Part shown: positions 7,577 through 22,060 of the stretch, in pieces
How positions within the stretch are numbered: position 1 is the first letter of the stretch
Layout: every line of letters begins with the position of its first letter
Assembly: GCF_000577275.2 (NCBI RefSeq)
Contig: NZ_HG916855.1
Span: 930,001-994,000, forward strand
DNA from: Rhizobium favelukesii
GTDB lineage: Bacteria; Pseudomonadota; Alphaproteobacteria; Rhizobiales; Rhizobiaceae
Direction of reading: 5' to 3'
Length of the DNA stretch: 64,000 nt
Made by a program: the position numbers and the translations under genes
Notes under the pieces: generated by a model
Databases searched by the model: none
What the model saw: the letters and a program-made list of their open reading frames with translations, nothing else
Told to the model about the DNA's origin: nothing

Positions 7577-8104
7577 TCACGGGACCAGGGACCTCTCGGT
7601 ATTTGCTGCTCGCTCGCCGGAAGGCGGCGGATGGTTTAACCTTTCCGCAAAAATCCTATGATCGGGTCGATAGGTGCCCGCCGCCAATTCTGCTCGGCCG
7701 GCCTCACCGAAATCCAAGAGAAAGTTCATTGCGCCGGAACGCGCGAGATCCCGCATTTCAGAAAGCGAGCGGTTAGGGGTCAGGTAGGTTTCGACGATCC
7801 TTTCCATTGCCATTTCGGCGGCATCCACGACCGGTCGCGATGAGATTAGACGCATTTGAGCGACCAGGGCGTAAAGCAGCACGAGATCTGAGACGTCGTC
7901 CTTCTGATGGCTGACCGCATCACCATAAAGCCGCGTGGCTTCGGCGATGAAATCCGAAAAGAGCTTTTCGCGCTTGGCAGCCTCGACCTCGCGTTGTTTT
8001 TCCTTCACCTGTGACCGGTGCGTCGCCCAGGCCGTAGCGAACGAAGCCAGGCCGCCGATCGCGACGCCGGCGAGGCCTACCAGGGCAGAAATGTATGCAT
8101 CCAT
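7577..8104 (-). CDS. Membrane-anchored hypothetical protein
   Basis: A 175-residue protein with one N-terminal membrane segment (ISALVGLAGVAIGGLASFAT, about residues 4-25), then a charged coiled-coil-like helix (SQVKEKQREVEAAKREKLFS) and a helical soluble domain. This layout is common in small rhizobial and enterobacterial inner-membrane proteins of unknown role. The C-terminal 30 residues are poorly structured. It lies downstream of and in the same direction as the TetR gene at 8195, about 90 bases away, so the two could share a transcript. Function unknown. Confidence 0.6.
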   Translation of the reverse strand: MDAYISALVGLAGVAIGGLASFATAWATHRSQVKEKQREVEAAKREKLFSDFIAEATRLYGDAVSHQKDDVSDLVLLYALVAQMRLISSRPVVDAAEMAMERIVETYLTPNRSLSEMRDLARSGAMNFLLDFGEAGRAELAAGTYRPDHRIFAERLNHPPPSGERAANTERSLVP

Positions 8105-8194: not shown

Positions 8195-8881
8195 CTACCC
8201 CGCCAGCGGAGGACCTACCCAAACGCCTTCTGGCACCGCGGGGATGCTGTTCACCAATCCGTCGAGCATTCCCTGCAGGACGTTCCCGGTCAGCTCCTCC
8301 ATCTTGTCGCTAGGGCCGACGAGGCGGTCCGCCAGCAGCAAGGTGAGACCGTGCATTTGCGACCAAAAAATGAGAATGGCCCCATCGATCGTGCGGGTAT
8401 TGGCCTCGGTATCTGCAATTGGCCGCCCGAGAGCGCCGTCAGAAATCGCACCTACGATGAGTGCTTTCATGTTGTAGGCCGCGGTTCTTTCGATTGCGGG
8501 GCGCCCATCGTCCTGACCGGCGAGGTAGCCGCCGAACATCAATCTGTAGAGCGCCGGATTTTTGACGCCGCCGCAGACATATGCGCGCGCCATGGCTGTC
8601 AGCCTCTTGCGCGGACTGTCGAGTTCTTTGGTCGCTTCGGCCATGCGTTTTGACAGCAGTTCGAACCCAACCGCCGAAACGGCGGCGAGCAGTTCTCGCT
8701 TGTCGGCGAAGTGTTTGTATGGGGCGTTGTGGCTGACGCCTGCCCGACGGGCGAGTTCCCGCAGCGAAAACTCCGTGGTCTGTGATTCGCTGAGGACGTC
8801 GAGCGCTGCATCCACGATGGCCCTGTGCAGGTCGCCATGGTGGTACGGGCGTTGCTCTGTGCTGGAAATATTTTGGGTCAT
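8195..8881 (-). CDS. TetR family regulator with WHG-type C-terminal domain
   Basis: A 228-residue regulator. The N-terminus RPYHHGDLHRAIVDAAL and the helix-turn-helix FSLRELARRAGVSHNAPYKH with FADKRELL are diagnostic of the TetR subgroup with the WHG (TetR_C_33) C-terminal domain. The C-terminal half carries the usual LYRLMFGG segment after a Pro-Ala pair. The start ATG at 8881 follows a TTGACA box and an inverted repeat at 8914-8938, suggesting autoregulation. A closely similar inverted repeat lies before the RND efflux operon at 32996, so that operon may also be a target. Two decayed relatives flank it (5930-6145 and 9330-9503). Confidence 0.9.
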   Translation of the reverse strand: MTQNISSTEQRPYHHGDLHRAIVDAALDVLSESQTTEFSLRELARRAGVSHNAPYKHFADKRELLAAVSAVGFELLSKRMAEATKELDSPRKRLTAMARAYVCGGVKNPALYRLMFGGYLAGQDDGRPAIERTAAYNMKALIVGAISDGALGRPIADTEANTRTIDGAILIFWSQMHGLTLLLADRLVGPSDKMEELTGNVLQGMLDGLVNSIPAVPEGVWVGPPLAG

Positions 8882-9503: not shown

Positions 9504-9674
9504 CTATGTCTTCTGGTGGTTGTCCGTAGTCGTCAACCTTGGTTGGAAAGCTGCGTGGTGTCGACACACAGGAGGATCAATGTTGCTGTCGCCAACTTTT
9601 TGCCATTTTTGATGCCTAAGTGGGCGCCGTCAACTTTCGCAAGGCCGTTTGCGCAGATCAGATTGGAGTTTTCA

Positions 9675-10397
9675 ATGAATCGTGAAGAACGCAGCGTAGC
9701 AGTATCGGAATCCATCACGAGCGCCGGCGGGTGGGGCCTGCGCTACCCAGGTCTTGTCATGGGCAAGGGTAGCAAGAACGAGGTGAAGGAGTTCACCGGC
9801 ATGTGGGGACTGAAGTCCGGAGCCGACCTGGTGGCGTTCACGGACACGCTCAGCCGAGAGGTCCCTGTCTGGGGCGGGCCCGGCAAGACGTTCTCGGAGG
9901 CGACGACGATGCTCGGCTTGATCCGGACGGCGCGATGGTTCGTCGCGAGGACTCAGGACTTCGATGGTTATGCCCTGTTCTTCATCTCCCAGTTCGACGG
10001 GAGTCTCGACAAATACTTCGACGACTTCGTTCTCAATGGGAAGGAGAACCTGACGAAGATCTGGGGTCAGTGCGTAGGGTGTCCAAGCGGCCCGGATGCG
10101 ACGGCAAGCGATATCGTGGAATATATCGCACGCGGTCAGATCAAGACCCTGGCCTGTTACGATGTTTTTCCGAGCCTCAGCCTCGGCCAGATCTACAAGG
10201 CCGCTGACTGGTACGAAAAGACCCAGAAGTTTCAGCGCGCGGTCGCCAAGGGCGAGGGCAAGCTCGAGGACATGGTCACCGCGTTTTTCGGAGAGCTGGC
10301 CGAATCCTACAAGCAAGTGCCAAGCGACGCGATGATCGACACCGAGGTCGGTCACCAGTGGCAGTACGAGGATGTTGCCGAACACATCGGCAAATGA
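9675..10397 (+). CDS. Unidentified protein, first gene of the DyP/DUF4331/ADC operon
   Basis: A 240-residue soluble protein without signal peptide or membrane segment. The segment GYALFFISQFDGSLDKYFDD (about residues 95-115) resembles a beta strand and turn seen in dimeric alpha/beta-barrel and DyP-like proteins, so it may be a non-catalytic relative of the peroxidase encoded next; this is inference. CVGCPSG (near 135) could be a redox or metal-binding pair. I chose the ATG at 9675, with GGAG 6 bases upstream, over the longer frame from 9516. It leads a co-directional run that continues to 22060. Confidence 0.75.
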   Translation: MNREERSVAVSESITSAGGWGLRYPGLVMGKGSKNEVKEFTGMWGLKSGADLVAFTDTLSREVPVWGGPGKTFSEATTMLGLIRTARWFVARTQDFDGYALFFISQFDGSLDKYFDDFVLNGKENLTKIWGQCVGCPSGPDATASDIVEYIARGQIKTLACYDVFPSLSLGQIYKAADWYEKTQKFQRAVAKGEGKLEDMVTAFFGELAESYKQVPSDAMIDTEVGHQWQYEDVAEHIGK

Positions 10398-10431
10398 CGC
10401 CCGCGAACACCGTCAGCACCAACTGACCTCC

Positions 10432-10482
10432 CAGAAGATGAGGTCGGCAGTTCGCCCCCGGCTCGGGCGGCCTCATCTTCTG
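10432..10482 (+). promoter_or_regulatory. Strong hairpin between the first two operon genes
   Basis: CAGAAGATGAGG (10432-10443) and CCTCATCTTCTG (10471-10482) are perfect 12-bp inverted arms, with a further GC-rich pairing (CGCCC/GGGCG) in the loop. There is no immediate run of T, only TTTTT about 15 bases later, so it could be a partial terminator or an RNA-processing/stability element that lowers or uncouples expression of the peroxidase gene relative to the first gene. Confidence 0.6.
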
Positions 10483-10519
10483 ACGACTGCGTCGACTTTT
10501 TGAGACAAGGATTCCGACA

Positions 10520-11938
10520 ATGCCGACTCTAGGTTCTCAGCCTAGCTTAACTTCTGCTGACCTCAAGGGCAACCTGCACGACATCCAGGATAATGTCGTG
10601 ACGCCAATTCTCCTGCGATACGGCCGTCACGTTTTCCTGAGGTTCAGCGACGGGGCGAAGTCGCGAGCATGGCTGCGCAACATGTTCCAACGCGTCAATG
10701 CGCGCCAACAGGAGCGTGGCACGCGATTCACGGTCAACATCGGGTTCACCCATCATGGCCTGAAGGCGCTCGGACTTTCCCAACGGGCGCTCGGCAGCTT
10801 CCCGGAAGCGTTCCGGGTCGGCATGGGGGGACGTGCAGGGGCGGTAGGCGACGCCGGACCCCATTCGCCGGAACATTGGGAGGGCGGCCTTGGGGGGCCC
10901 GACATTGACGCAATGGCTTGGCTTCGAACCGATTCCGATCAAGGTCGCGAAGAGGCAACCCGCATCCTCCGCGAGGAGTTCGAGTCGACCGGCGGGGTCG
11001 AGATCCGGTTCGTTCAGGATACCATGGCGCTCGCGCATGAAAGCGGGATCGGGTCCGAAGGCGAACATTTTGGGTTTGCCGATCCAATCTCCCAACCGCC
11101 GATCGAAGGCGCGGATACGCCTGCCTATCCGGGCGACGGCGCGCTCGAAAACGACGGCACCTGGCGTCCGCTGAAACCGGGCGAGTTCCTGCTCGGGTAT
11201 GAAGACGAGGTCGGACCCGGCGGCACGATGATGCCCGAACCATTCGAACTGCGGGTGAACGGAACATACATGGTGTTCCGCAAGCTCTACCAGGACGTTG
11301 CAGCGTTCCGCCGATATCTGGCGACCGCCGCGCGCTCGCTCTACGGCAGCGACGATCAGGACCATCGGGACCTGGTGGCGGCCAAACTCATGGGTCGCTG
11401 GCCGAGCGGTTGCCCGCTCGACCTGTCGCCCGAGAAGGACGATCCGGCCATCGCCGCCGACCCTGACCGGCGCAACGATTTCACCTATGCCGGCGACGAC
11501 GAAGGCCTGCGGTGCCCGCTCGGATCGCACCTGCGTCGCAGCAACCCGCGTGCCACGCGCCTTAAACGGGCGACTGCCGTAAGGCGCCACCGACTGCTTC
11601 GGCGCGGCGTCGAATACGGTCCGCATCTTGAGGATGGCGCCCTTGAAGACGATGGGATCGATCGCGGCCTGATTAACCTGTTCATCCAGGCCGACATCGA
11701 ACGACAGTTCGAGTTCGTCCAGGCCGAATGGATGAAAGGTGGGGAGTTCATGGGACTCGACCCCGCCGAGCAAGACCCGATCAATGGCGTCGGTGGCGAA
11801 GGATCGCAAATGTCCGTGCCAGGCGCCAAGCGACCGTTCCTTTTCGATCTACCCACCTTCGTCACGGTCAAGGGCGGCGAATACTTGTTCGTGCCCGGGC
11901 TGAACGCGCTCGCGGGCATCATCGAACAGAAATTCTGA
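10520..11938 (+). CDS. DyP-type heme peroxidase
   Basis: A 472-residue dye-decolourising peroxidase family protein. The proximal heme-ligand motif is clear: CPLGSHLRRSNPR with His337. The distal GxxDG motif appears as HFGFADPISQP: the catalytic Asp188 is kept but the usual Gly after it is Pro. Family role: H2O2-dependent oxidation of large phenolic or dye substrates. No signal peptide or Tat motif is visible, so it is probably cytoplasmic or cargo-loaded. It is the second gene of the operon, behind a 12-bp hairpin and 22 bases ahead of the DUF4331 gene. The shuffled spacing of the heme motif agrees with the larger DyP classes (about 450-500 residues). Confidence 0.88.
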   Translation: MPTLGSQPSLTSADLKGNLHDIQDNVVTPILLRYGRHVFLRFSDGAKSRAWLRNMFQRVNARQQERGTRFTVNIGFTHHGLKALGLSQRALGSFPEAFRVGMGGRAGAVGDAGPHSPEHWEGGLGGPDIDAMAWLRTDSDQGREEATRILREEFESTGGVEIRFVQDTMALAHESGIGSEGEHFGFADPISQPPIEGADTPAYPGDGALENDGTWRPLKPGEFLLGYEDEVGPGGTMMPEPFELRVNGTYMVFRKLYQDVAAFRRYLATAARSLYGSDDQDHRDLVAAKLMGRWPSGCPLDLSPEKDDPAIAADPDRRNDFTYAGDDEGLRCPLGSHLRRSNPRATRLKRATAVRRHRLLRRGVEYGPHLEDGALEDDGIDRGLINLFIQADIERQFEFVQAEWMKGGEFMGLDPAEQDPINGVGGEGSQMSVPGAKRPFLFDLPTFVTVKGGEYLFVPGLNALAGIIEQKF

Positions 11939-11960
11939 TCCATCGAAAGAGGCGAATACA

Positions 11961-13076
11961 ATGTCAGATCATTTCAGCGGCCCGGCGGTCATGGACGACC
12001 CCGCCGTCGACATCACCGATTTCTACGCCTTTCCCAGCCCGGAACGTCCAGGCAATCTCGTCCTGATCATGAATGCGTTTCCCATGGCCACATCGCAGTC
12101 GTTTTTCAGCGATGTCGTGACCTATCGTTTCCGGCTGCGACCGCTGACCCAGTCGGGAGCCGGCTTCGTGCACGGTCCGGAAGACTATACGATCGACGTG
12201 CGTTTTAGTGATGTGCCAGACGGGACGTCGGCCCAGAAAGGTTCCATCGTCACATCGGATGGGCGCGAGACAGGATTCGTCACTGGCGAGCCTTCGGAAC
12301 TCGAGGGCATGCGGATCTACGCGGGACTGGTCAGCGACCCGTTTTTCATGGATGTCGAGGCCACCATCCGCACGGACATTTCCGGCAAGCTCTCCTTCGG
12401 AGCCAAGGGCACGAACACCGTCGAGTTTCGCGACGTCTTGACGATCGTCGTCGAGGTGCCGTTCGCTCCAATCCTTGAAGGATTGGATGGCGTTACTTTG
12501 ATTGGAGCCATTGCGGAAACGCTAGTCGCACGCAGCAAGCCCATCCGGCTCGAACGTGTCGGCCGGCCGGAAATCAAGAACGTGATGCTGTCGAACGCGA
12601 CACGCGATCCCAAGGGTGTCGAGCTACGCGACCTTTACAACAAAGAGGACGCCTTCTCCCTCTCCAGGGAATATCGGCCGCTCTACGAGTCGCGTGTCGA
12701 TGCGACGCTTGCGTTCTTCGACGGTCTCGACGGCGAGATGGCCTGGCAGTTGGCAGCGGATGGGCGGCATCCCATGCGCGATCTGCTCATGGACGACTAC
12801 CTGGTCCTGGATCTCGCTCATCCCTTCGCGACGGGCAATTTTCTCGAAATCGAACGGGCGGCGCTCGAGAACCGTCCGCACGCGAGCGCAGGCGGTCGCT
12901 GGCTCGACGATGACATCCTGGACGAGATGCTCACGCTTCTCGTGAACGGCGGGCGGGGCGAACGGCTGGGTGATGGCGTCGACGGTCCAACCAATCCGGC
13001 CGCACCAATCTTTCCTTACGTGCGTCAAGCCAACGAGCGGACGGATCTTTCCATGCCCGCATTTGTGGAGAAATGA
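11961..13076 (+). CDS. DUF4331 family protein
   Basis: A 371-residue protein with the DUF4331 signature near its start: SDHFSGPAVMDDPAVDITDF followed by YAFPSPERPGNLVLIMN. These proteins are mostly beta-rich and of unknown function, and often exported; this copy has no clear signal peptide. The middle shows repeated beta-strand-like segments and the C-terminus a conserved block (RPLYESRVDATLAFFDGLDG). Its stop overlaps the start of the decarboxylase-like gene (ATGA), so translation is coupled. AAAGAGG precedes the start. The location between a peroxidase and a decarboxylase suggests a role in handling the same oxidised substrate, which is unproven. Confidence 0.82.
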   Translation: MSDHFSGPAVMDDPAVDITDFYAFPSPERPGNLVLIMNAFPMATSQSFFSDVVTYRFRLRPLTQSGAGFVHGPEDYTIDVRFSDVPDGTSAQKGSIVTSDGRETGFVTGEPSELEGMRIYAGLVSDPFFMDVEATIRTDISGKLSFGAKGTNTVEFRDVLTIVVEVPFAPILEGLDGVTLIGAIAETLVARSKPIRLERVGRPEIKNVMLSNATRDPKGVELRDLYNKEDAFSLSREYRPLYESRVDATLAFFDGLDGEMAWQLAADGRHPMRDLLMDDYLVLDLAHPFATGNFLEIERAALENRPHASAGGRWLDDDILDEMLTLLVNGGRGERLGDGVDGPTNPAAPIFPYVRQANERTDLSMPAFVEK

Positions 13077-13870
13077 ACATGAACATCATGAAAGACAATG
13101 GCAGCGCCACCGACTGGTTCCTGGAGTACCCAGTGATGCCGACGCTGAGGCCCAGCTATCCTCGCGGGCCTTGGCACTACAAAGACATGCACCAGCTCGT
13201 CGTCACCTACGAGAGCACTGCGGAGGCCATCCGGGCGGTCGTCCCAAGACCTCTCGTACCCGCCGAGGGCAACCGCGTCACCATAGAATGGCGGCGTATG
13301 ACGGAAGTCACAGGTTTCGGACCCTACACGGAGGTCGGCCATTCCGTGGCGTGCACCTACGAGGGCGAACCGGTCATCTACGTCTTCCAAGCATATCTCG
13401 ACAGCGAAGCGCCGACGCTGGCCGGCCGGGAGATCCTGGGCTTTCCAAAGCGACACGGCGAGCCTGAACTGACGGCCGTGCGAGACGTCCTGACTGGTGC
13501 CCTGTCCTATGGCGGGACCCAGGTCGCGCTTGCGACCATGCCGTACCGCATGGTCGATCTGTCGGATCGTCTGCCCGAGATCGAGAAGGAACTGCAGACC
13601 ACCCAGCTCGTGCTGAAGCTGCTTCCCGACGTCGACGCTCGCACCCCGAAGGTCGCCCAGCTTGTCAAGGTCAATCTCTACGATGTCCGGTTGAAGGGCG
13701 CATGGGGCGGTCCCGCGGAGCTGTTCATGGTCCCGCATGTCGGCTGCCCGGTCGCGGCGCTTCCGGTCGTGCGCGTTCTCGAAGGGCGCCAGCACCTCTG
13801 GGACATGACGCTCAACGACGGTGAAGTCGTCTACGACTACCTTGAGGCCGGCGCCGCTAGAGCGCGCTGA
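13073..13870 (+). CDS. Acetoacetate decarboxylase (ADC) family protein
   Basis: A 265-residue ADC-fold protein. The key segment is GREILGFPKRHGEPEL: Lys126 matches the Schiff-base lysine of acetoacetate decarboxylase and the following pKa-tuning lysine is replaced by Arg. Family members either decarboxylate beta-keto acids or act as aldolase/dehydratase-like enzymes on larger substrates, so the reaction cannot be fixed here. It overlaps the DUF4331 stop by four bases. Downstream are a nitroreductase of the RutE type and an SDR, consistent with a short pathway for a keto/semialdehyde compound. Confidence 0.82.
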   Translation: MNMNIMKDNGSATDWFLEYPVMPTLRPSYPRGPWHYKDMHQLVVTYESTAEAIRAVVPRPLVPAEGNRVTIEWRRMTEVTGFGPYTEVGHSVACTYEGEPVIYVFQAYLDSEAPTLAGREILGFPKRHGEPELTAVRDVLTGALSYGGTQVALATMPYRMVDLSDRLPEIEKELQTTQLVLKLLPDVDARTPKVAQLVKVNLYDVRLKGAWGGPAELFMVPHVGCPVAALPVVRVLEGRQHLWDMTLNDGEVVYDYLEAGAARAR

Positions 13871-13949
13871 AGGTGGCGCGGAGAGCGACTGCCCAGGCAG
13901 CGCTCGTCGTCCGCTTCCCTCAAATACTCCAATAGCAAAAGGAAACCAA

Positions 13950-14573
13950 ATGATTGCCAATGTTGACCGCAACAGCCTTCGTCGTGGCGAACCACTCGGC
14001 GCCGATGCCGTGGCCCAGCTCTTTACCGAGGCGCGGACCCACAATGCCTTCCACGAGCTTCCCGTTCCTGACGCGCTTCTGCGTGACGCGCTCGACCTCG
14101 CCAAGATGGGGCCGACCTCGGCCAACCAGCAGCCTCTGCGCGTGCTTTTCCTGACCTCGACGGTAGCCAAGGAGCGGCTGCGTCCGGCGCTCATGTCCGG
14201 CAATCTCGAAAAGACCATGGGCGCACCGGTCGTCGCCATCACGGGCTATGATCTGGAGTTTTACGAACACCTGCCGTTTCTACTCCCGCACGCCGATGCG
14301 AAGAGCAGGTTCGCCGACAACCCGGACCTCGCTGCCCGCAGTGCCGCTCAAAACGGCACCCTTCAGGTCGCGTACTTCATTCTTGCGCTGCGCGCCGTGG
14401 GCTTGGATGCGGGGCCGATCACGGGCTTTGACCCAGCCAAGGTCGAGCGGGAGTTCTTTCCCGACGGCAACATCAAGGCAAACGTCATTATCAACATCGG
14501 CTACGGCAACGACGCCAAGCTGTTCCCTCGCAGCCCGCGGCTCTCGTTCCACGAGATGGCGACGATCCTCTGA
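13950..14573 (+). CDS. Nitroreductase family protein, RutE-like (malonic semialdehyde reductase type)
   Basis: A 207-residue flavoprotein of the nitroreductase superfamily. Motifs typical of RutE are present: the LFTEARTHNAF start, MGPTSANQQPLRVLFL (FMN binding, about residues 50-65) and GPITGFDPAKVEREFFPDG (about 150). RutE reduces malonic semialdehyde to 3-hydroxypropionate in E. coli; here no other rut genes are present, so the substrate is probably a different small aldehyde or enone. The start ATG at 13950 follows AAAGGAAAC. It sits 79 bases after the ADC-like gene in the operon. Confidence 0.82.
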   Translation: MIANVDRNSLRRGEPLGADAVAQLFTEARTHNAFHELPVPDALLRDALDLAKMGPTSANQQPLRVLFLTSTVAKERLRPALMSGNLEKTMGAPVVAITGYDLEFYEHLPFLLPHADAKSRFADNPDLAARSAAQNGTLQVAYFILALRAVGLDAGPITGFDPAKVEREFFPDGNIKANVIINIGYGNDAKLFPRSPRLSFHEMATIL

Positions 14574-14617
14574 AGCTTGCAACCCAAAGGGAGTCCGGAC
14601 GTAGGATCCGATCCCTA

Positions 14618-14635
14618 TGTGGAAACCATTCCACA
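14618..14635. promoter_or_regulatory. Short perfect inverted repeat before the SDR gene
   Basis: TGTGGAA and TTCCACA pair perfectly around ACCA, 19 bases before the SDR start and just ahead of its AAGGAG ribosome binding site. It could be an internal operator or a weak mRNA hairpin; the sequence alone does not decide. Confidence 0.4.
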
Positions 14636-14653
14636 GATCAAGGAGAAGTAAAT

Positions 14654-15439
14654 ATGGACATGTTGAAGGGCAAGGGCGCCGTCGTGACCGGCGCCGCATC
14701 CGGTATCGGCAAGGCCATCGCGACGGCATTTATCGAAGCGGGCGCGAGCGTGGTGCTTTGCGATCTCAATGCAAAGGCGCTCGATGAGGCGACCCGTGAG
14801 CTTGGCGACCGCGCCATCGGCCGGGTCGTCGACGTTTCGGACGAGGATCAGGTCGAAGGCGCGCTGCGGGCGGCGCACGATAGGTTCGGGTCGCTCGATG
14901 TCGTGGTCAATTGCGCCGGCTTTGGTGCGATCATTCCGCTTACCGAACTCTCCGCCGACAAGTGGAGAGCAGTTCATGCCGTGACGCTCGGCGGGGTCTT
15001 CTTCGGCGTCAAGCATGGGGCCCGGATCATGATCGAGCAGGGACGACCGGGTGTCATCATCAACATCTCCTCGGTGAACGCACGCCAACCCGGCGAGGGT
15101 CAGGCGGCCTACTGCGCCGCGAAGGCCGGGGTGGACATGATCACCCGGTGCGGCGCGCTGGAACTCGGTGGCCGAGGCATCCGCGTCGTTGGCATTGCGC
15201 CCGGTCTCGTGGAAACGCCATTGACTAGGAAGGAACTCGAGGATCCCGCCATGCGCGACCTGTTCCTGAGCGTCATCCCGATGAACCGCGCCGTGGAAGC
15301 GGAAGAAATCGCCGCGGCTGCCGTGTTCCTTGCATCCGCCAAAGCGAGATCGATCAATGGCGACACGATTGCGATCGACGGAGGCTCCCTGACGCGGGGC
15401 TATCCTGCGCTGCTGACCGGCCTCAAGGTTGCCTCCTGA
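14654..15439 (+). CDS. Short-chain dehydrogenase/reductase (SDR)
   Basis: A 261-residue classical SDR. Visible motifs: VTGAASGIGKA (NAD(P) binding, residues 11-20), NCAGFG in the NAG position, ISSVNA with the catalytic Ser, and YCAAKAG with the catalytic Tyr and Lys. The Asp in VVLCDLN (near 37) favours NAD over NADP. IDGGSL near the C-terminus is standard. The ribosome binding site AAGGAG lies before the ATG. Its stop overlaps the start of the TPR gene. Probable role: oxidation or reduction of an alcohol/ketone intermediate made by the neighbouring peroxidase, decarboxylase-like and nitroreductase enzymes. Confidence 0.88.
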   Translation: MDMLKGKGAVVTGAASGIGKAIATAFIEAGASVVLCDLNAKALDEATRELGDRAIGRVVDVSDEDQVEGALRAAHDRFGSLDVVVNCAGFGAIIPLTELSADKWRAVHAVTLGGVFFGVKHGARIMIEQGRPGVIINISSVNARQPGEGQAAYCAAKAGVDMITRCGALELGGRGIRVVGIAPGLVETPLTRKELEDPAMRDLFLSVIPMNRAVEAEEIAAAAVFLASAKARSINGDTIAIDGGSLTRGYPALLTGLKVAS

Positions 15440-16476
15440 TGATGATCCAGCCCCATCGCTATACAAGCGGGCGGATTGCTCTCGCCAACCTGTCGACATC
15501 GATCGACAGGTTGGAGCGGGAGCGTGCTGCGGGTGGGAGTTCCGAAAGCTTGCTCACGCTCGCGAAGCTCCTCTTTCTCCGCGGTGACGTGCTCGGCAGA
15601 ATCGAGGACCATGACCGGGGCGAGTCCATCGCCACTGAGGCGATCGACATGTCGTCCAACTGCGCAAGAGCGGTCTATGTGCGTGCGCAGATGGCGGGAC
15701 GCTTCCACTGTTTCGCGAAAGCCAAAGCGCTTCTCGCTCAAGCGTTGGTGGCTGGATATTCGAGACAGGAAATTGAAGCAGCGCGCGCGGCTCTGCTTCA
15801 GGCGACGGGATACTATAACGAAGCGCTGGTCCTGCGTGAAAGACTCGCGAAGCGCAATCCTCGGATTGATACGCTTGCAAGCCTCGCGACGCTGCTGGCG
15901 GAAATGGATCAATGGGGCAGGGCGGAGACCTACTATGCTGCCGCGCTCGACGCCGACGATGGTGCGTCCCCTTTCCCCTGCGGACAACTGCTCTTCGAAT
16001 GGGGAGTGAGTTCGATGCGCCGAGGCGATCTGGATCACGCGGAGGCGGTCTTCGCAGCGCTCGACGCGGTATTGCCTGCACACGTTCCGGGACGCGGGCA
16101 TCGTGCCGAGGTGGCGTTCGCCCGCGGGAAACTGGACCTGGCAGAATCTCTCGTCGCCCCCCTGTTGGAAGCCTCCGATGATCCGGAGTACCGCGCGCTC
16201 TATGCGGAAATTCTCGCCGCGCGCGGCGACGGCAGGTCCGCGAGACACGCCGAACTTGCAGGCGAAGCATATGAGCGGCTGCTGGCGCGTCGGCCCGAAG
16301 CCTATGCGGACCATGCGGCGGCTTTCTTCATGGGGATCGGCAATCGGCCAAAGCGAGCGGTCGAGCTTGCCTTGGCCAATTTAAGAGTCCGCGACACGCC
16401 GAGGTCGCGCAAGCTGCTTTCCAAGGCGAGTGCTTCGGAACAAGCCACCACCCTGGCCCGCGAGTTCACCGTATGA
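15439..16476 (+). CDS. TPR-repeat protein
   Basis: A 345-residue helical protein made of degenerate tetratricopeptide-like repeats; for example GDVLGRIEDHDRGESIATEA, LLAEMDQWGRAETYYAAALD and MRRGDLDHAEAVFAALDAV follow the small-large-small TPR spacing. No signal peptide or catalytic motif. TPR proteins normally act as protein-protein scaffolds. The gene overlaps the SDR stop (TGATG) and its own stop overlaps the next flavoprotein start (ATGA), so the three products are probably made in fixed ratio and could form a complex. Partner unknown. Confidence 0.75.
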   Translation: MMIQPHRYTSGRIALANLSTSIDRLERERAAGGSSESLLTLAKLLFLRGDVLGRIEDHDRGESIATEAIDMSSNCARAVYVRAQMAGRFHCFAKAKALLAQALVAGYSRQEIEAARAALLQATGYYNEALVLRERLAKRNPRIDTLASLATLLAEMDQWGRAETYYAAALDADDGASPFPCGQLLFEWGVSSMRRGDLDHAEAVFAALDAVLPAHVPGRGHRAEVAFARGKLDLAESLVAPLLEASDDPEYRALYAEILAARGDGRSARHAELAGEAYERLLARRPEAYADHAAAFFMGIGNRPKRAVELALANLRVRDTPRSRKLLSKASASEQATTLAREFTV

Positions 16477-17834
16477 ACGCTCGCCTCACCGTCGCGACAA
16501 ACCAGACATCGCGGGTCAAGATCGTTGTCATCGGCGCAGGTTTCGCCGGCCTGGCAGCCGTACGCGCCCTGCGCAACAGCAATGCCGATATCACGCTCGT
16601 CGACCGCAACAATCACCACCTGTTTCAACCTTTTCTCTTCCAGGTCGCCACCTCGATCCTGGAGCCGGCGGAAATCGCGACGCCGATCCGATCGCTTCTG
16701 CAGGAGATGCCCAACGTCCGGGTGGAAATGCGCGAGGCGACGCGCATCGACCTGTCCCGCCGGGTTGTCGTCATGAACGAAGGCGGCAATCTGGCCTATG
16801 ACATCCTGGTGGTCGCGACGGGAGCGCAGACGAGTTATTTTGGTCGCGAGGCGGAATGGGCGCCACACGCGCTCGGACTGAAGTCGCTCGGCGACGCCAT
16901 CACCGCCCGCAATCGACTTTTGAAGGCGTTCGAGCGAGCCGAGTTGGAGCCTGACCGTCGGAAACAGGCGCGCGATATGACGGTGGTCGTCGTCGGCGGT
17001 GGGCCGACAGGCGTGGCGATCACAGGCACGATTAGCGAGTTTATTCGAAGGACGCTCGCATCCGACTTTCGAAATATCGACCTCGGCAAGGCGCGCGTCG
17101 TTCTGGTCCAGTCGGGATCAAAATTGCTGCCGGCATTCAGCGAGCAACACTCGGCCTATGCGGCCCGCGCGCTGGAAGACCAAGGGGTCGAGGTGAAGCT
17201 GGGCGTTCCCGTAACTCACGTGGACGCGACGGGTGTTGTCGTCGGCGACGAGCATATCGCGGCCGCGACCGTGTTGTGGTGCACAGGCGTCCAGGGAGTG
17301 GCGCTAGCCCGCACGCTCGGCGCGCATGTCAAACCCGACGGAACGGTTGCGGTCCTGAATGATCTTTCAGTGCCGGGGCATCCCGAGTGCTTTGTAATCG
17401 GCGATGCGGCCCATGTTATCGGCCCCGACGGTCGCCCGATGCCGGGCCTGGCGTCGGTTGCGCAGGATCAGGGCCGATACGTCGGCAGGCTCATCGCCGC
17501 CCGGCTTGCAAACACCGCCCATTCCAAGCCTTACGAGTCCTTCACGCCGAGCAAGCTGGCGACCATCTCCCGCCACGTCGGCGTTGCGGAATTTCGCGGC
17601 CGTTCGATCATCGGCTTTCCAGCGTGGTTGTTGTGGGGACTGCTGCATCTTCGAATCCTGTCTGGCGGCGGTCATGCAAGGCTGTCGATCCTGGGGAACT
17701 GGGTGCGCCTTCTAACCACCTACCGCCGCAGCGGACGGCTGATCGTAGAGCCGTCCGAGCTGGGAGCCGGTCGGGGAGGGTACGCGCCTGCAATCAACGA
17801 AATCGCCGAAGACACTGCCATCTGGAGAAGATAG
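16473..17834 (+). CDS. NAD(P)/FAD-dependent oxidoreductase, type-II NADH dehydrogenase family (copy 1)
   Basis: A 453-residue flavoprotein with two Rossmann motifs: IVVIGAGFAGLAAVRALR (FAD, about residues 17-34) and VVVVGGGPTGVAITGTI (NAD(P)H, about 170-186). CFVIGDAAH (near 310) is the second FAD contact. The C-terminal FPAWLLWGLLHLRIL segment (near 390) matches the amphipathic membrane-association region of NDH-2 enzymes. Family role: NADH:quinone oxidoreduction without proton pumping. It overlaps the TPR gene and is followed directly by a second paralogue. Sulfide:quinone reductase is a less likely alternative because its redox-cysteine pattern is not evident. Confidence 0.85.
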   Translation: MNARLTVATNQTSRVKIVVIGAGFAGLAAVRALRNSNADITLVDRNNHHLFQPFLFQVATSILEPAEIATPIRSLLQEMPNVRVEMREATRIDLSRRVVVMNEGGNLAYDILVVATGAQTSYFGREAEWAPHALGLKSLGDAITARNRLLKAFERAELEPDRRKQARDMTVVVVGGGPTGVAITGTISEFIRRTLASDFRNIDLGKARVVLVQSGSKLLPAFSEQHSAYAARALEDQGVEVKLGVPVTHVDATGVVVGDEHIAAATVLWCTGVQGVALARTLGAHVKPDGTVAVLNDLSVPGHPECFVIGDAAHVIGPDGRPMPGLASVAQDQGRYVGRLIAARLANTAHSKPYESFTPSKLATISRHVGVAEFRGRSIIGFPAWLLWGLLHLRILSGGGHARLSILGNWVRLLTTYRRSGRLIVEPSELGAGRGGYAPAINEIAEDTAIWRR

Positions 17835-19190
17835 ATGTCGAATCCATCCACACCGTCCGACAAGCTGCAGCGACACGACCCTGACCAAGGTGTCAGGCCT
17901 TCGAGGCCCCACCAGATCGTCGTCGTCGGCGGCGGAATCGCCGGACTTGAAATTGCCTCGAAACTGCCGGGAAGCATACGCAACGCCTCGATCGCCGTGA
18001 CGCTGGTCGACAGGGAGCCTGCCTATGTATGGAAGCCGATGCTGCATACGATCGCCGCCGGAACCACCGACGTCTCCCAGCAGGAAACCTCCTACATCTC
18101 CCAAGCCCGCAACCGACGTTTCGTGTTCGAGACGGGAGAACTCAAGGGCATCGACCGGAAAGAGCGGAAGCTTCATCTGAAGCCCTTGGAAATCGAGGGT
18201 CGCTCCATCTTGCCGGAGCGCGCGATTTCCTATGATACGCTGATCCTCGCGACGGGCAGCGAGGCGAACGACTTCGGAACGCCAGGCGTGCGCGATCACT
18301 GCCTCACGATCGATAGCCGTTCCCAGGCGATGAAATTCAATCGCGAGGTGATGGCTCACATGCTCGAAGCGCTGGCCGCCAAGAGCAGCTTGCACATCGC
18401 GGTGGTCGGCGGCGGCGCCACAGGAGTCGAACTCGCAGCAGAGCTTGTCCAGCTCGCCGATACCTCTGCCTACTACGGCGCAGCAGGCCTGCTCGACCAG
18501 GTCAAGGTGACGCTGATCGAGAGCGGGCCGAATCTGTTGGGTGCGTTTCCCGATCGGGTGGCGATCGCCGCCCGCGAGCGTATCGAAAAACTCGGCGTCA
18601 CCGTCCTGACAGGCGCGCGCGTCGTCGCTGCCGAAGCCGGTTGCCTTCGACTGGCGGACGGAACACAGATCAACGCCGGGCTGAAGGTATGGGCGGCCGG
18701 TGTGAAGGCTTCGGACGCCTGTGCCTCGTTCGACGGGCTCGAGGTGACGAGCAACAACCAGATCGTGGTGCGACCTACGCTGCAGACGACGCAGGATCCC
18801 CGGATCTTTGCCGTCGGGGACTGTTCCAGTCTTTCCGTGGGAGATCCCGGCAGGCCACTACCGCCGGCGGCACAGGTCGCGCATCAGCAGGCTTCGCATT
18901 TGATCCGCCATCTTCCTGGCTGGCTGGAAGGGAAAGAACTGCCCTCATTCTCCTACAGGGACTTCGGTTCGATCGTATCGCTAGGCGGCTATGGCGCCTA
19001 TGGCTCGCTTGGACAATTCGGACTGTTCACGGGCGGCTTCCTACGTGGGCGCGTGGCACAACTCGGTCACGTTCTCCTCTACCGCAGCCATCAGTCGCGG
19101 CTGCACGGATTCTGGCGTGGCGGGCTGATATGGCTCGCGGACATGATCAACTCCCATGTCCGAGCGCGCATTCGATTGCCCGACCGATGA
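17835..19190 (+). CDS. NAD(P)/FAD-dependent oxidoreductase, type-II NADH dehydrogenase family (copy 2)
   Basis: A 451-residue relative of the preceding gene. IVVVGGGIAGLEIASKLPG (about 29-47) binds FAD, IAVVGGGATGVELAAELVQ (about 190-208) binds NAD(P)H, and FAVGDCSSL (about 320) is the distal FAD motif. The C-terminus has the hydrophobic patch FTGGFLRGRVAQLGHVLLY expected for membrane contact. The start codon follows the previous stop with no gap. The two copies differ clearly in sequence, so they are not a recent duplication; they may form a heterodimer or serve different donors. The stop overlaps the next small ORF. Confidence 0.85.
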   Translation: MSNPSTPSDKLQRHDPDQGVRPSRPHQIVVVGGGIAGLEIASKLPGSIRNASIAVTLVDREPAYVWKPMLHTIAAGTTDVSQQETSYISQARNRRFVFETGELKGIDRKERKLHLKPLEIEGRSILPERAISYDTLILATGSEANDFGTPGVRDHCLTIDSRSQAMKFNREVMAHMLEALAAKSSLHIAVVGGGATGVELAAELVQLADTSAYYGAAGLLDQVKVTLIESGPNLLGAFPDRVAIAARERIEKLGVTVLTGARVVAAEAGCLRLADGTQINAGLKVWAAGVKASDACASFDGLEVTSNNQIVVRPTLQTTQDPRIFAVGDCSSLSVGDPGRPLPPAAQVAHQQASHLIRHLPGWLEGKELPSFSYRDFGSIVSLGGYGAYGSLGQFGLFTGGFLRGRVAQLGHVLLYRSHQSRLHGFWRGGLIWLADMINSHVRARIRLPDR

Positions 19191-19282
19191 TGGGCGCCGT
19201 GGCCGGACAACTGCTCCGTGCCACGTTGGTCGCGCTCCCTGACCGCTATGCGAATTGGATCGCCCGAGAGGCTACGACATGA
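19187..19282 (+). CDS. 31-residue coupling ORF
   Basis: An ATG-start frame overlaps the stop of the upstream flavoprotein by four bases, and its own stop overlaps the start of the permease gene by four bases (both ATGA). It encodes a short amphipathic peptide beginning MMGAVAGQLLRATLVALPDR. It fills exactly the gap between two genes that would otherwise be 88 bases apart, so it may be a translated linker that keeps ribosomes moving, or a small protein. No family recognised. Confidence 0.45.
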   Translation: MMGAVAGQLLRATLVALPDRYANWIAREATT

Positions 19283-19916
19283 CCCCCTTCTTTCTGACGA
19301 CCCTTCTGGCCTCCGGGCTCCTCGCAGGCTTTGTTCACGTGGTCTCCGGGCCCGATCACCTTGCAGCCATCGCGCCCTATGCCGTCGACGCCAAAGCTCG
19401 TGCATGGCGCACGGGATCCGATGGGGGGTCGGGCACAGCGCCGGCGTCATCGGCGTTGGGCTGCTCGCGCTTGTGTTGCGGGGCGCTCTGTCCATTGACG
19501 TCGTCTCCGCCTGGGGCGAACGTTTCGTGGGAGTCATGCTCTGCGGCATCGGCATCTGGGGACTACGGACAGCATTTGCCGACCAGGCTGAAACTCATTC
19601 CGACGGGTATTATCCGCACGGTCGCCGGCACAAGCATCCGGCCTTCGCTGTCGGTACGGTGCACGGACTGGCCGGCAGTTCTCACTTGCTAGGTATCGTG
19701 CCGGCGCTGGCATTGCCCACGAATACCGAAGCGGCGGCCTATCTCCTCGTCTTCGGTCTTGGCACGATCGCAGCGATGGCGACCTTTTCAACCTTCATCG
19801 GCTGGTTCGCAAGTCGGCCCGGCGCCCGACGTGCCAGAGTGCAAAGCGGCCTCATGTCCACGTTCTCGATGCTCGCGATCATCGTCGGAGGCGTGTGGTT
19901 TTGCCAAGGCATTTGA
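19279..19916 (+). pseudogene. NicO/UreH-like metal permease, frameshifted
   Basis: A polytopic membrane protein read in two frames. The first frame starts at 19279 and has the metal-binding signature FVHVVSGPDHLAAIAPYA in its first helix; it ends its homology at RAWRTG. The second frame continues with IRWGVGHSAGVIGVGLLALV and runs through further helices (VGTVHGLAGSSHLLGIVPAL, a second His-rich motif) to the stop at 19914-19916. Inserting one base in ACGGGATCC (19411-19419) would restore a protein of about 212 residues. Family role: nickel/cobalt or other small-ion transport. Either a real inactivating deletion or a sequencing error. Confidence 0.75.
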
Positions 19917-20029
19917 GCATCCCATTCCTTGGGCGCCGAACGCTCAAGCGCGTGGAAAACGTCTGCTGGCGGGAACCTTCGTTGGGCCTGCCTGCCATCA
20001 ATGAATCTTCAATCAAAGAGGAAATGAAC

Positions 20030-20927
20030 ATGAAAGTTTGCAATGGCTCGAACCGAATCCTATTGAAAGGCCTGCGCTGTTCGGTCGCGGCGGACCCAAC
20101 TGTCGATGGCGCAAGCGGGGGAGGTTTGAATGCGATACTTCGAAATGCCGTCCAAGCCGTCGCGCTCGTCGTGTGCGTAGGATTCGCCGCGCTGCCGACA
20201 GCCCGCGCAGATGAGTCGGAACCTCCGTTCAAGCCGGCGATCAGCGACGAGGCCGAGACCGCCGTTTCACAGATGGGAAAGACGCTACTCGCAAGGGACC
20301 TGTCGATCACTGCGAGAACGATCCGCGTTTATTTGGATCAGTCCGGACAACCGCTTCACATTTTTCACACAATGAAAATCGCCGTGCGCCGGCCTGACCG
20401 GATCGTCGTCGAATTTACCGGCGATGACGGAAAGCACAATCTGTTCTACGACGGCAAGGCGGCCTCGCTCTTTTATCCCGACAGTAAAAAATACGTGACG
20501 ACCCCCGCGTCGGGCGACATACCGTCCGCGCTTGAGGTGGTCGCAGACAAGCTCGACTTCGATTTTCCGCTGGGCGCACTTTTTGGAGCTTCTCCGGATA
20601 AAAATCCTGTTGGGCGATGCCATGGCCGCCTGGCAGGTTGGGACGGCCGAGGTCGACGGCATCGAGTGCAGGCATCTGTTTTTCTCTCAGAAGTCCGGTA
20701 TCGATCTGGAACTGTGGGTCGAGAAGAACACCGCGGCGACGCCACATCGCCTGATCGTCACCTATCCGTTGCTGCAGGGCCAACCCCGGTTCATCGCAGA
20801 ATTCACGAGCTGGAAGACCCAGCCTCCTTTGTCTGACTCCGAGTTCACCTTTGACCCTCCCGCCGGGGTGAAAGAGGTCGACTCGACACCCGCCGTCGCG
20901 TCGGGAAAGGAAGGCGGCAAGCGATGA
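20030..20927 (+). pseudogene. DUF2092 family periplasmic protein, frameshifted
   Basis: An exported protein: a signal segment (AVALVVCVGFAALPTARA) ends near residue 60. The first frame has IRVYLDQSGQPLHIFHTMKI and RPDRIVVEFTGDDGKHNLFY, then KKYVTTPASGDIPSALEVVA, typical of DUF2092 proteins. Homology jumps frame within the A run at 20600-20604 and continues as ILLGDAMAAWQVGTAEVDGI to FTFDPPAG. Removing one A would join them into about 298 residues. I prefer the ATG at 20030 because AGAGG lies 8 bases upstream; 20024 is also possible. Its stop overlaps the next gene. DUF2092 resembles LolA/LolB-like lipid-binding folds (family knowledge); role unknown. Confidence 0.75.
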
Positions 20928-22060
20928 ATCGTCTGAAGTGCACCAGCCTTGCTTTTGTCGCTTTAACGGCCATTACGTCGGACGTGGCCTTCGGTCAGTT
21001 TGCGCCACCGCCCGGCGGTCCGCCGAGTCTGCCAATGGGCGGGCCACCGCGTTTCCCGTCAGGAGGGATGCCGCACCTGCCATCGGGAGGGCCTGGCGGG
21101 TCGCCGCGTCCGCAGGTGGGTCGGACACCGCGTCCGCCGATGGCGAGCCACGGTCGGCCGCCGATAAGCGCGCAGAACCGTCCTACAGTGAAGCCAAGAA
21201 GTCGTATGCCAGGTGTCGGCGGCGCAAAGGGGCGACTGGCGGAGGGCCCCGGCCGCGAAGGGAGCAATGTGTCCGGAAATATCCGCAACACGCTGAACTC
21301 GGGCGGCAACGTCGTCGGGAACCGCGCCTTCATGAACTCCGGGGGCAATATCGTCGCGAAGGACTCAGGCAACCTCACCGTCAACAACTCAGGCGATCTC
21401 AAGGTCTCGGGCAACGGCAACGGATACTTTGGCCGTGGATACTATGGTGGTGGAGACCGCGGCGTCGGCGACTACGGTTACGGAGAGTATAGCGGCGGAG
21501 ACTACGGGCGCGGATACTATCGCCGCGGAGCCTACGTTCTGGGCGGGTATGCGGCAGGCCTCGTTACCGGTGCGGCAGCCGCCTCGAGCACGGGCGGAAC
21601 GACGTATTCTTCCTATGGAGATCAGTCGGGATCCGCTACGGGTTCCTCCGGCGCGGCGTATTCGAATTCGTCCCACGGCAGCGCAGGCTCCGCTAACGCG
21701 GCGTCGTCGGGTTCGTCCGGGGGTTCTTCGAGTTCGTCTCACGCCAGGTCTTCGGGCCCTTCTGGCGAGGTATCTCCGACCTCTTCCGATCAAATCCGCT
21801 CGGCTCCGTCCGATGGCGGCGGAGGCGGGGGGACGAACCAGGGCGGCGGCAACAGCAGCTCCTCCTCTTTGAGTCCTTTGATCGTAGGCCTGTTTGAGAG
21901 TTTACCGCCGGAGGGAACGGCATGGACCTCGGAGGATGCCGTCGGTTGGCTTCAGGCTGCGGCTGCCAATTTGCGGATAGTCTATAGGATCCAGGGAAAT
22001 ATCTCGGTCACGGGCGACATCCAACCATCTGATTACAATCGCGCGCCTCGCGGGAACTAG
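20924..22060 (+). CDS. Exported Pro/Gly/Ser-rich low-complexity protein
   Basis: A 378-residue protein with an N-terminal signal (TSLAFVALTAITSDVAFGQ). It has blocks in order: Pro/Gly repeats built on GGPP and PSGG (residues 27-85), an Asn/Gly segment NSGGNVVGN/NSGGNIVAKDSGN (120-150), a Tyr/Gly region (GYFGRGYYGGGDRG, 160-200) with a short hydrophobic stretch, a Ser/Gly linker (220-320) and a folded-looking C-terminus (LFESLPPEGTAWTSEDAVGW). It is translated from an ATG overlapping the DUF2092 stop; the pair looks like a secreted unit at the end of the operon. A 70-bp piece of a similar gene survives at 39945-40021. Possibly an envelope-structural or adhesive protein. Confidence 0.7.
   Translation: MNRLKCTSLAFVALTAITSDVAFGQFAPPPGGPPSLPMGGPPRFPSGGMPHLPSGGPGGSPRPQVGRTPRPPMASHGRPPISAQNRPTVKPRSRMPGVGGAKGRLAEGPGREGSNVSGNIRNTLNSGGNVVGNRAFMNSGGNIVAKDSGNLTVNNSGDLKVSGNGNGYFGRGYYGGGDRGVGDYGYGEYSGGDYGRGYYRRGAYVLGGYAAGLVTGAAAASSTGGTTYSSYGDQSGSATGSSGAAYSNSSHGSAGSANAASSGSSGGSSSSSHARSSGPSGEVSPTSSDQIRSAPSDGGGGGGTNQGGGNSSSSSLSPLIVGLFESLPPEGTAWTSEDAVGWLQAAAANLRIVYRIQGNISVTGDIQPSDYNRAPRGN

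Follow-up and report, generated by a model that had tools for sequence, protein, structure and literature searches.

What process would bring together, in a single operon, a DyP-type heme peroxidase, a protein of the DUF4331 family and a varied set of reductases and flavoproteins? The operon lies in a 64,000-nucleotide stretch of Rhizobium favelukesii (NZ_HG916855.1, 930,001-994,000; genome size 7.57 Mb), hereafter the window. Nine intact genes run in one direction on its forward strand (9675-19190): orf1, DyP, DUF4331, a gene for an acetoacetate-decarboxylase (ADC)-fold protein, a RutE-type gene, a short-chain dehydrogenase/reductase (SDR) gene, a TPR gene and two genes for NDH-2-like flavoproteins, a and b. 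From orf1 to flavoprotein b the successive gaps are 122, 22, -4, 79, 80, -1, -4 and 0 bases, with RutE taken from its first Met (13950). On the 3' side follow a permease-like gene and a DUF2092-like gene, the former in two frames and the latter also split, and then a Pro/Gly-rich gene. The genome carries one match to the operon DyP and one DUF4331.

An initial annotation, made from the window alone, had named these families, which were borne out by matches to TIGR01413, PF14224, PF06314, NF003768, PF13561, TPR_19 and PF07992. It had counted thirteen co-directional genes; the single direction stands, with nine genes intact, but the span holds twelve genes and those for the permease and DUF2092 are split. 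Its "many" four-base overlaps come down to two, beside one overlap of a single base and one abutting pair. We are highly confident that the nine-gene set, with its conserved core, is one functional unit. More tentatively, and with a confidence a little short of even, we read that unit as a TetR-controlled redox operon in which a fixed core (orf1, a GXXDP-type DyP, DUF4331, TPR and often a HupE/NicO-like permease) would be combined with exchangeable accessory enzymes.

Conserved core and exchangeable enzymes

Loci for comparison came from a scan of genomes by orf1 alignment (11 loci), from plasmid records and from further genome stretches. Seventeen hold orf1, DyP and DUF4331 (the window, L016-L025, L042, L043, L044, L048, L049 and L080, where L-numbers denote compared stretches). 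Left out were Rhizobium sp. T136, which is of the same lineage as the window, a decayed copy (L026) and a DUF4331-TPR locus with no DyP in its 19 kb stretch (L081). As the loci were found through orf1, DyP or DUF4331 searches, the presence of these genes was selected, while gene order and the TPR gene were not; some stretches end early, so that counts of accessory genes among the 17 loci are lower bounds.

The 17 loci belong to Rhizobium, Ensifer/Sinorhizobium, Mesorhizobium, two more families of the order, two genomes of the phylum Acidobacteriota and one Streptomyces plasmid. The order orf1-DyP-DUF4331 was found in all of them, with two extra genes between DyP and DUF4331 in L044 and one in L025, and a TPR gene in the same direction lay downstream in 15 (the exceptions were L048 and L049). 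One Acidobacteriota copy (L023) is on a contig of a metagenome-assembled genome and may be misbinned; L080, from the sample of the same phylum and more distant, has the same gene order. Ratios of non-synonymous to synonymous substitution (dN/dS) lay at 0.08-0.26 across the nine intact operon genes and TetR, indicating purifying selection (Nei-Gojobori script; pairs of the window, L016 and L042, or of the window, L020 and L025 for RutE). Because the order recurs in distant taxa and the dN/dS values are this low, the gene set is more than a chance assembly. The single coordinated unit that had been proposed for the window is thus conserved, in fixed order, well beyond the strain, and so passes a test set by the initial annotation, which would have taken a neighbourhood confined to this strain as a refutation. 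A search of open-licence PubMed Central papers found no publication describing this gene combination. Genes for proteins that join a class III adenylate/guanylate cyclase to TPR repeats stand divergent to orf1-DyP-DUF4331 in two loci (L048 and L049); in L018 such a gene lies some 6 kb upstream of it.

Around the core the enzymes vary. SDR was present in 11 of the 17 loci, ADC and the permease-like gene in nine each (the window copy of the latter being broken) and RutE in four. The TPR gene was followed by an NDH-2-like gene in nine loci and, in four (L020, L021, L024 and L025), by another flavoprotein that carries a dimerisation domain, in keeping with the earlier assignment of NDH-2-like flavoproteins to the set. 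Six loci (L024, L043, L044, L048, L049 and L080) lack ADC, SDR and RutE altogether beside the core.

These counts bear on a catabolic explanation, whereby DyP oxidises an aromatic or lipid-like compound, ADC, SDR and RutE handle the keto and aldehyde products, and NDH-2 returns electrons to quinone. A divergent TetR gene and the carbonyl-active enzymes of many loci would suit such an operon, as would a Sinorhizobium copy in which an SRPBCC (Polyketide_cyc2) domain is fused to DUF4331, with a molybdenum enzyme, a cytochrome c and an iron-sulphur protein beside the module. The enzymes are, however, optional or replaced, six loci do without all three, and Pfam assigned none of the nine window genes to a ring-cleavage or lipid-pathway family; we consider a catabolic operon clearly unlikely. 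The initial annotation had put peroxidation, keto/aldehyde handling and transfer to quinone at the centre; since ADC, RutE, SDR, flavoproteins and permease are all optional, a keto/aldehyde pathway is not the core.

In the window itself, the ADC-fold protein (13073..13870; PF06314, 195.6 bits against a cut-off of 29.8; NF002614; PDB 3bgt, 5.2e-52) has K126 within GFPKR, aligned with the PKK of 3bgt, 3c8w and 3bh2, the position of the Schiff-base Lys of acetoacetate decarboxylases. The optional RutE-type protein (13950..14573), of the malonic semialdehyde reductase family and nitroreductase fold, exceeds its equivalog cut-off (NF003768, 268.6 against 152), and the SDR (14654..15439) matches PF13561 at 211 bits. 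Both Pyr_redox_2 (PF07992) proteins, flavoprotein a (16473..17834; PDB 9mqy, 2.5e-80) and flavoprotein b (17835..19190; PDB 9pxk, 6e-39), have type II NADH dehydrogenases as their closest solved sequences; what sets them apart is that two dissimilar copies stand side by side in a DyP operon. An NDH-2 relative also lies near a four-gene cytochrome/quinol-oxidase-like cluster in two Mesorhizobium loci, L021 (by Pfam) and L025 (by shared cluster). The cluster on pSchITTGS70a of Sinorhizobium chiapasense shares orf1-like, DyP, DUF4331, TPR and HupE/UreJ genes with the window; it differs in having NIPSNAP, a second orf1-like gene, the SRPBCC fusion, cytochrome c, iron-sulphur and molybdenum enzymes and hemA in place of ADC, SDR and NDH-2.

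The peroxidase and orf1

The peroxidase (472 amino acids; 10520..11938) passes the curated superfamily model TIGR01413 at 103.8 bits (cut-off 100.5), and its two Pfam DyP domains score 25.2 and 13.2, short of their cut-offs of 27.5 and 20. Residues D188, H337 and R361 align with D171, H308 and R329 of BadDyP (2d3q), which we take to be its catalytic distal Asp, proximal His and distal Arg. The closest solved proteins are PDB 8re2 (5.2e-85) and 8re3 (7.4e-84); from their sequences and from PMC10820274 we infer these to be DrDyP of Deinococcus radiodurans (DR_A0145) and its M190G form. The three residues correspond to D189, H324 and R348 in DrDyP.

The GXXDG fingerprint is incomplete. The window has GFADP, and the 11 other loci of its clade that were read (L016-L025 and L042) have GF[AV]DP, as does one DyP copy of L049; GXXDG is kept in L043 and L044, and neither the DyP of L048 nor the second copy of L049 fitted the fingerprint pattern used. 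DrDyP has Met at the last GXXDG position and is still classed as a DyP (PMC10820274). Because the window protein departs from the fingerprint at the same place as DrDyP, which is nonetheless a DyP, we call it a DyP variant on the basis of its sequence. Its likeness to DrDyP thus comprises closest solved sequence, conserved Asp, His and Arg, and a substituted last GXXDG position (Met in DrDyP, Pro here). The main text of the DrDyP paper makes no mention of an operon or genome context (PMC10820274), and a literature search on DyP in rhizobia returned no mention of DyP among the best eight of 4,099 open-licence PubMed Central papers.

An iron system of encapsulin or EfeUOB type is extremely improbable. 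The encapsulin cargo system was rejected on finding no PF04454 match in the source genome as assembled, the same search being positive in three of 14 control genomes; the EfeUOB system was rejected on the score against the EfeB equivalog TIGR01412, 22 bits with a cut-off of 428. The operon is therefore a DyP operon of neither type.

Upstream of DyP, orf1 (9675..10397) encodes 240 amino acids. The predicted structure is close to barrels of the ABM/NIPSNAP/OAC type (ferredoxin-like fold), so that the protein is probably a dimeric alpha+beta barrel. A protein database held 627 orf1 proteins; against solved sequences, the search for orf1 returned a single row, with E 1.1. In two genomes an orf1-like domain is N-terminal to DyP within one frame, of 998 amino acids in L053 and 953 in L054. 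The earlier suggestion of a DyP-like partner holds in part: the barrel fold is probable and the fusions join the two proteins, but hhalign gave no match between orf1 and the DyP profile. It follows that orf1 is not shown to be a duplicate of DyP and that the link consists of fold type and fusions. On balance we think it rather likely that orf1 and DyP form a complex. The L053 and L054 fusion proteins also have an N-terminal part with hydrophobic stretches (by eye, L040) ahead of the orf1-like and DyP domains.

DUF4331, its amino terminus and its neighbours

DUF4331 stands for a domain of unknown function; the family has at least 7998 matching proteins, and no paper naming it was found among open-licence PubMed Central papers. 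The window protein (11961..13076; PF14224, 99.9 bits against a cut-off of 27) has no signal peptide by eye and begins M-S-D-H. Forty-three DUF4331 proteins were taken from part of the fetched loci, of which 42 were readable (the L129 frame lacks a start). The predicted N-terminus [S/A]-X-His was present in all 42, preceded directly by Met in 14 and by an AXA-like, signal-peptidase-like site in 28. The motif was chosen by pattern and the preceding residues were not. Signal sites were judged by rule: a loose rule, used for these 28, takes A, S or G in position -1 and A, V, S, T, G, I, L or C in position -3, and a strict rule takes A in position -1 and A, V, S or T in position -3. Among the 14 Met-type proteins, the frames of L080, L081, L091 and L044 are open further upstream or contain an earlier Met, so that their starts are inferred; the deposited L044 gene starts at the Met directly before the motif.

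Searches with single proteins gave the same picture. With the window DUF4331 as query, all 120 best cytosolic-type matches listed start MSDH. An exported-type query gave SSH in all 120 matches listed, with a strict site directly before it in 112, and a strict site at any other single offset tested (-8 to +8) in at most 24 of the 120. The loose rule held directly before SSH in 118 of 120, but it held equally within the motif, two residues on, in all 120. The 240 listed matches are closely related within each set and are not independent; the 42 locus proteins are more diverse.

Ser or Ala after Met normally permits removal of the Met, and a free X-X-His N-terminus is a copper/nickel site of the amino-terminal (ATCUN) type. 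In hydrogenase and urease systems, permeases of the HupE/UreJ kind are associated with nickel. For NDH-2 of Escherichia coli, a Cu(II) reductase activity has been described (PMC3817396, PMC7558416). Taken together, these four points make metal binding a coherent reading; judged from sequence, DUF4331 may possibly bind metal through an N-terminal ATCUN-type site, a proposal we hold tentatively. The neighbourhoods and the N-terminal pattern provide the first biochemical idea that we have found for DUF4331; if the metal idea is true, a recurring gene cluster of several bacterial groups gains a function.

Those neighbourhoods reach beyond the DyP operon. In a phylum-wide sample not chosen by DyP, PF14224 matched 17 of 299 genomes, including the source genome. 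The other 16 genomes yielded 17 stretches. The profile detects DUF4331 in 16 of them (L114-L129) and not in the remaining one, a second place below the cut-off (L130). L127 ends just past DUF4331, with its downstream side out of view. In 11 of the 16 stretches DUF4331 was followed downstream by a TPR gene, either directly or after one small gene; a HupE-type permease followed TPR in ten, and ECF sigma and RskA-type anti-sigma genes stood alongside in 11. Neither DyP nor orf1 was found in any of the 16, within up to about 7 kb on each side. The wider TPR and permease profiles used here were seeded with six and five members, respectively, of the same 16 stretches, which makes the counts partly circular. 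Five stretches outside the seed (L114, L118, L121, L122 and L125) matched the wider TPR profile at E 1e-35 to 1e-128. An independent Pfam scan of representatives found TPR in L115, L117 and L128, HupE_UreJ_2 at 132-164 bits in L114, L115, L117 and L120, and RskA_C (72.6) with Sigma70_r2 in L115.

A second sample, on the Acidobacteriota side, comprised 396 genomes with 11 matches at E <= 1e-10, from which 11 stretches of ten genomes were taken (L080-L090). TPR was next to DUF4331 in ten of the 11 (nine with a profile made before the sample), and a permease domain and DyP were each found once. Compared by hhalign, the window-type and wider families matched at E 3.8e-35 for TPR and 5.4e-25 for DUF4331. 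Because DUF4331-TPR is the more widespread, the pair is probably older than its link to DyP. The recurrence of TPR, DUF4331 and permease supports their belonging together, and with it the earlier inclusion of the permease in the set.

The cluster of DUF4331, TPR, HupE/UreJ and ECF/RskA genes, for which we found no established name, thus shares with the operon the DUF4331 and TPR families, their order and a HupE-type permease after TPR; its proteins differ in carrying signal peptides, and DUF4331 is often separated from TPR by a small additional gene. One protein of the cluster has 94% identity to a Shewanella protein. In the window the TPR protein (15439..16476; TPR_19) has no signal peptide by eye, and the HupE/NicO-like permease gene (~19255..19916), interrupted and in two frames, has profile matches in both frames and an H-x5-D-H motif as in HupE proteins. 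A search for the DUF4331 fold with Foldseek was set aside as noise, the best 50 rows being nearly all antibody fragments (E > 0.008, TM about 0.1).

A broader proposal, speculative and somewhat unlikely in its full extent, is that DUF4331 proteins form a large class, so far unrecognised, that binds Cu/Ni at the N-terminus and works with a TPR partner of its own and a permease of HupE/UreJ type. One lineage would have lost its signal peptide, with an initiator Met taking its place and the free Ser-Asp-His being kept. This module would then have joined a GXXDP-type DyP and its barrel partner, and the operon would be a cytoplasmic metal-plus-peroxide redox system in which the NDH-2-like proteins might serve as metal or quinone reductases.

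Proposed function, control and decay

The redox operon that we favour might work as follows. TetR would control the operon; orf1 would bind DyP and present or receive its substrate; DyP would use H2O2 or an organic peroxide in the cytoplasm, consistent with the lack of a signal peptide, by eye, on orf1, DyP, DUF4331 and TPR. DUF4331 would carry Cu(II) or Ni(II) through the ATCUN-type Ser-Asp-His site, and TPR would be a scaffold working with it. SDR, ADC, RutE and the NDH-2-like proteins would suit the module to its local substrate and hand on electrons to quinone. The whole chain of steps is more doubtful than metal binding by DUF4331 taken by itself. Compared with the enzyme pathway first proposed, the core is smaller and its DUF4331-TPR part reaches further. 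Two new leads stand out as most useful: the N-terminus of DUF4331, together with the TPR and permease that accompany it, and the pairing of orf1 with DyP.

Several observations count against this reading. The operon is rare: strong orf1 matches (E <= 1e-100) occurred in five of 148 genomes of the genus (eight at E <= 0.001), orf1 at E <= 1e-20 in one of 385 genomes of the class, that one being the source genome, and the DUF4331 subfamily at E <= 1e-10 in three of 397 genomes of the order. Its core is also mosaic and not strictly co-inherited, since pairwise identities among 11 loci correlated only moderately between core genes (0.46-0.67) and L022 orf1 is nearer to the orf1 of L023-L025 than to other Rhizobium copies. 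Wild-type DrDyP, the closest solved DyP, is described as inactive at pH 7.5, with the Met substitution not the cause (PMC10820274). To this is added the missing profile match between orf1 and DyP. Conservation of the N-terminal His may be structural, and the predicted DUF4331 structure is of low confidence (pLDDT, the model's own score, 60.9). The DUF4331 proteins linked to DyP in L048 and L049 carry a signal peptide and their DyP apparently none, which would place the two in separate compartments there. The operon's own TPR-family profile matched only four of the 16 phylum-wide stretches (L116, L117, L123 and L128), and hhalign finds only remote similarity between the permease families (80%, E 1.3e-5). 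Finally, the permease gene is broken in the window strain and DyP is interrupted by an element in T136, so that the operon can evidently be lost.

The initial annotation had overlooked two genes on the reverse strand: a TetR-family regulator divergent from the operon (8195..8881; TetR_N, 40.6 bits against a cut-off of 24; dN/dS 0.085-0.138) and a gene at 7577..8104 for a small protein of 175 amino acids with a hydrophobic N-terminus by eye and a below-cut-off LapA_dom match. The latter's cluster (C7) occurs in eight stretches, adjoining TetR or after the permease. TetR is divergent beside orf1 in the window, L016, L018, L022 and L042, and partial at a contig edge in L017. The presumed operator/promoter region (9560..9674, forward strand) was compared among the five complete loci; repeats of the TGTCAAC/GTTGACA type lie between TetR and orf1 in L016, L018, L022 and L042 and are degenerate in the window (by eye). 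A palindrome scan flagged only L016 and L018 among the intergenic regions compared. Upstream in three Mesorhizobium loci (L020, L021 and L025) are a LysR gene and an NDH-2 relative that is divergently oriented.

An oxidative-stress operon would place DyP in the removal of peroxide, the NDH-2-like proteins and reductases in the removal of quinones and reactive carbonyls, and DUF4331-TPR in the role of a stress-induced structural pair. L050, where an orf1-like gene and DyP are paired with a 346-amino-acid catalase-fold protein and 5-aminolevulinate synthase, points this way, as do the hemA genes flanking the Sinorhizobium copy. Yet no promoter pattern of the EcfG general-stress type was found upstream of the window operon or of the eight other loci scanned, TetR or LysR genes adjoin the operon, and its distribution is very patchy; we judge this explanation rather unlikely. 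Ten intrinsic terminators were found where shuffles gave 12.9, and six sigma-70-like sites where 3.1 (sd 1.8) were expected, the one near orf1 being on the minus strand.

Window positions 1-24,978 are 99.99% identical to plasmid pT136a of Rhizobium sp. T136 (NZ_CP088009.1, L041), bar one insertion in T136. The insertion, a 1414-base element that is presumably IS701-like, has a frame resembling a transposase and a target repeat of 4 bases, and lies at window positions 10529-10532 in the first DyP codons; the window is without it. The permease frame split is common to the window and T136, and the gene is open in L016, L017, L022 and L042. The DUF2092-like gene is split in the window and a single frame in T136, and the Pro/Gly-rich gene is open in the window and interrupted in T136. 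In Rhizobium mesoamericanum (L026/L055), fragments of orf1 and DyP lie beside an intact DUF4331 gene.

The secreted DUF2092/Pro-rich pair had been counted as part of the operon. It recurs in just two of the other 23 clustered stretches, downstream in L022 and upstream in L018, several stretches being too short to tell; given that recurrence, we set these genes aside as members and regard them as probably neighbours.

Elsewhere in the window, a reverse-strand fragment at 5863-6171 matches the operon TetR profile (E 1e-30) and suggests an old upstream duplication or rearrangement. Also on the reverse strand are a molybdopterin enzyme with a pyrogallol-hydroxytransferase-like first domain (1806-4805), an iron-sulphur protein (919-1869) and a TetR gene (279-938). 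Beyond the operon, at 24041-29110 on the same strand, is a giant protein of 1689 amino acids that combines kinase, AAA, GAF, PAS and histidine kinase domains, its kinase domain seemingly cut at the start.

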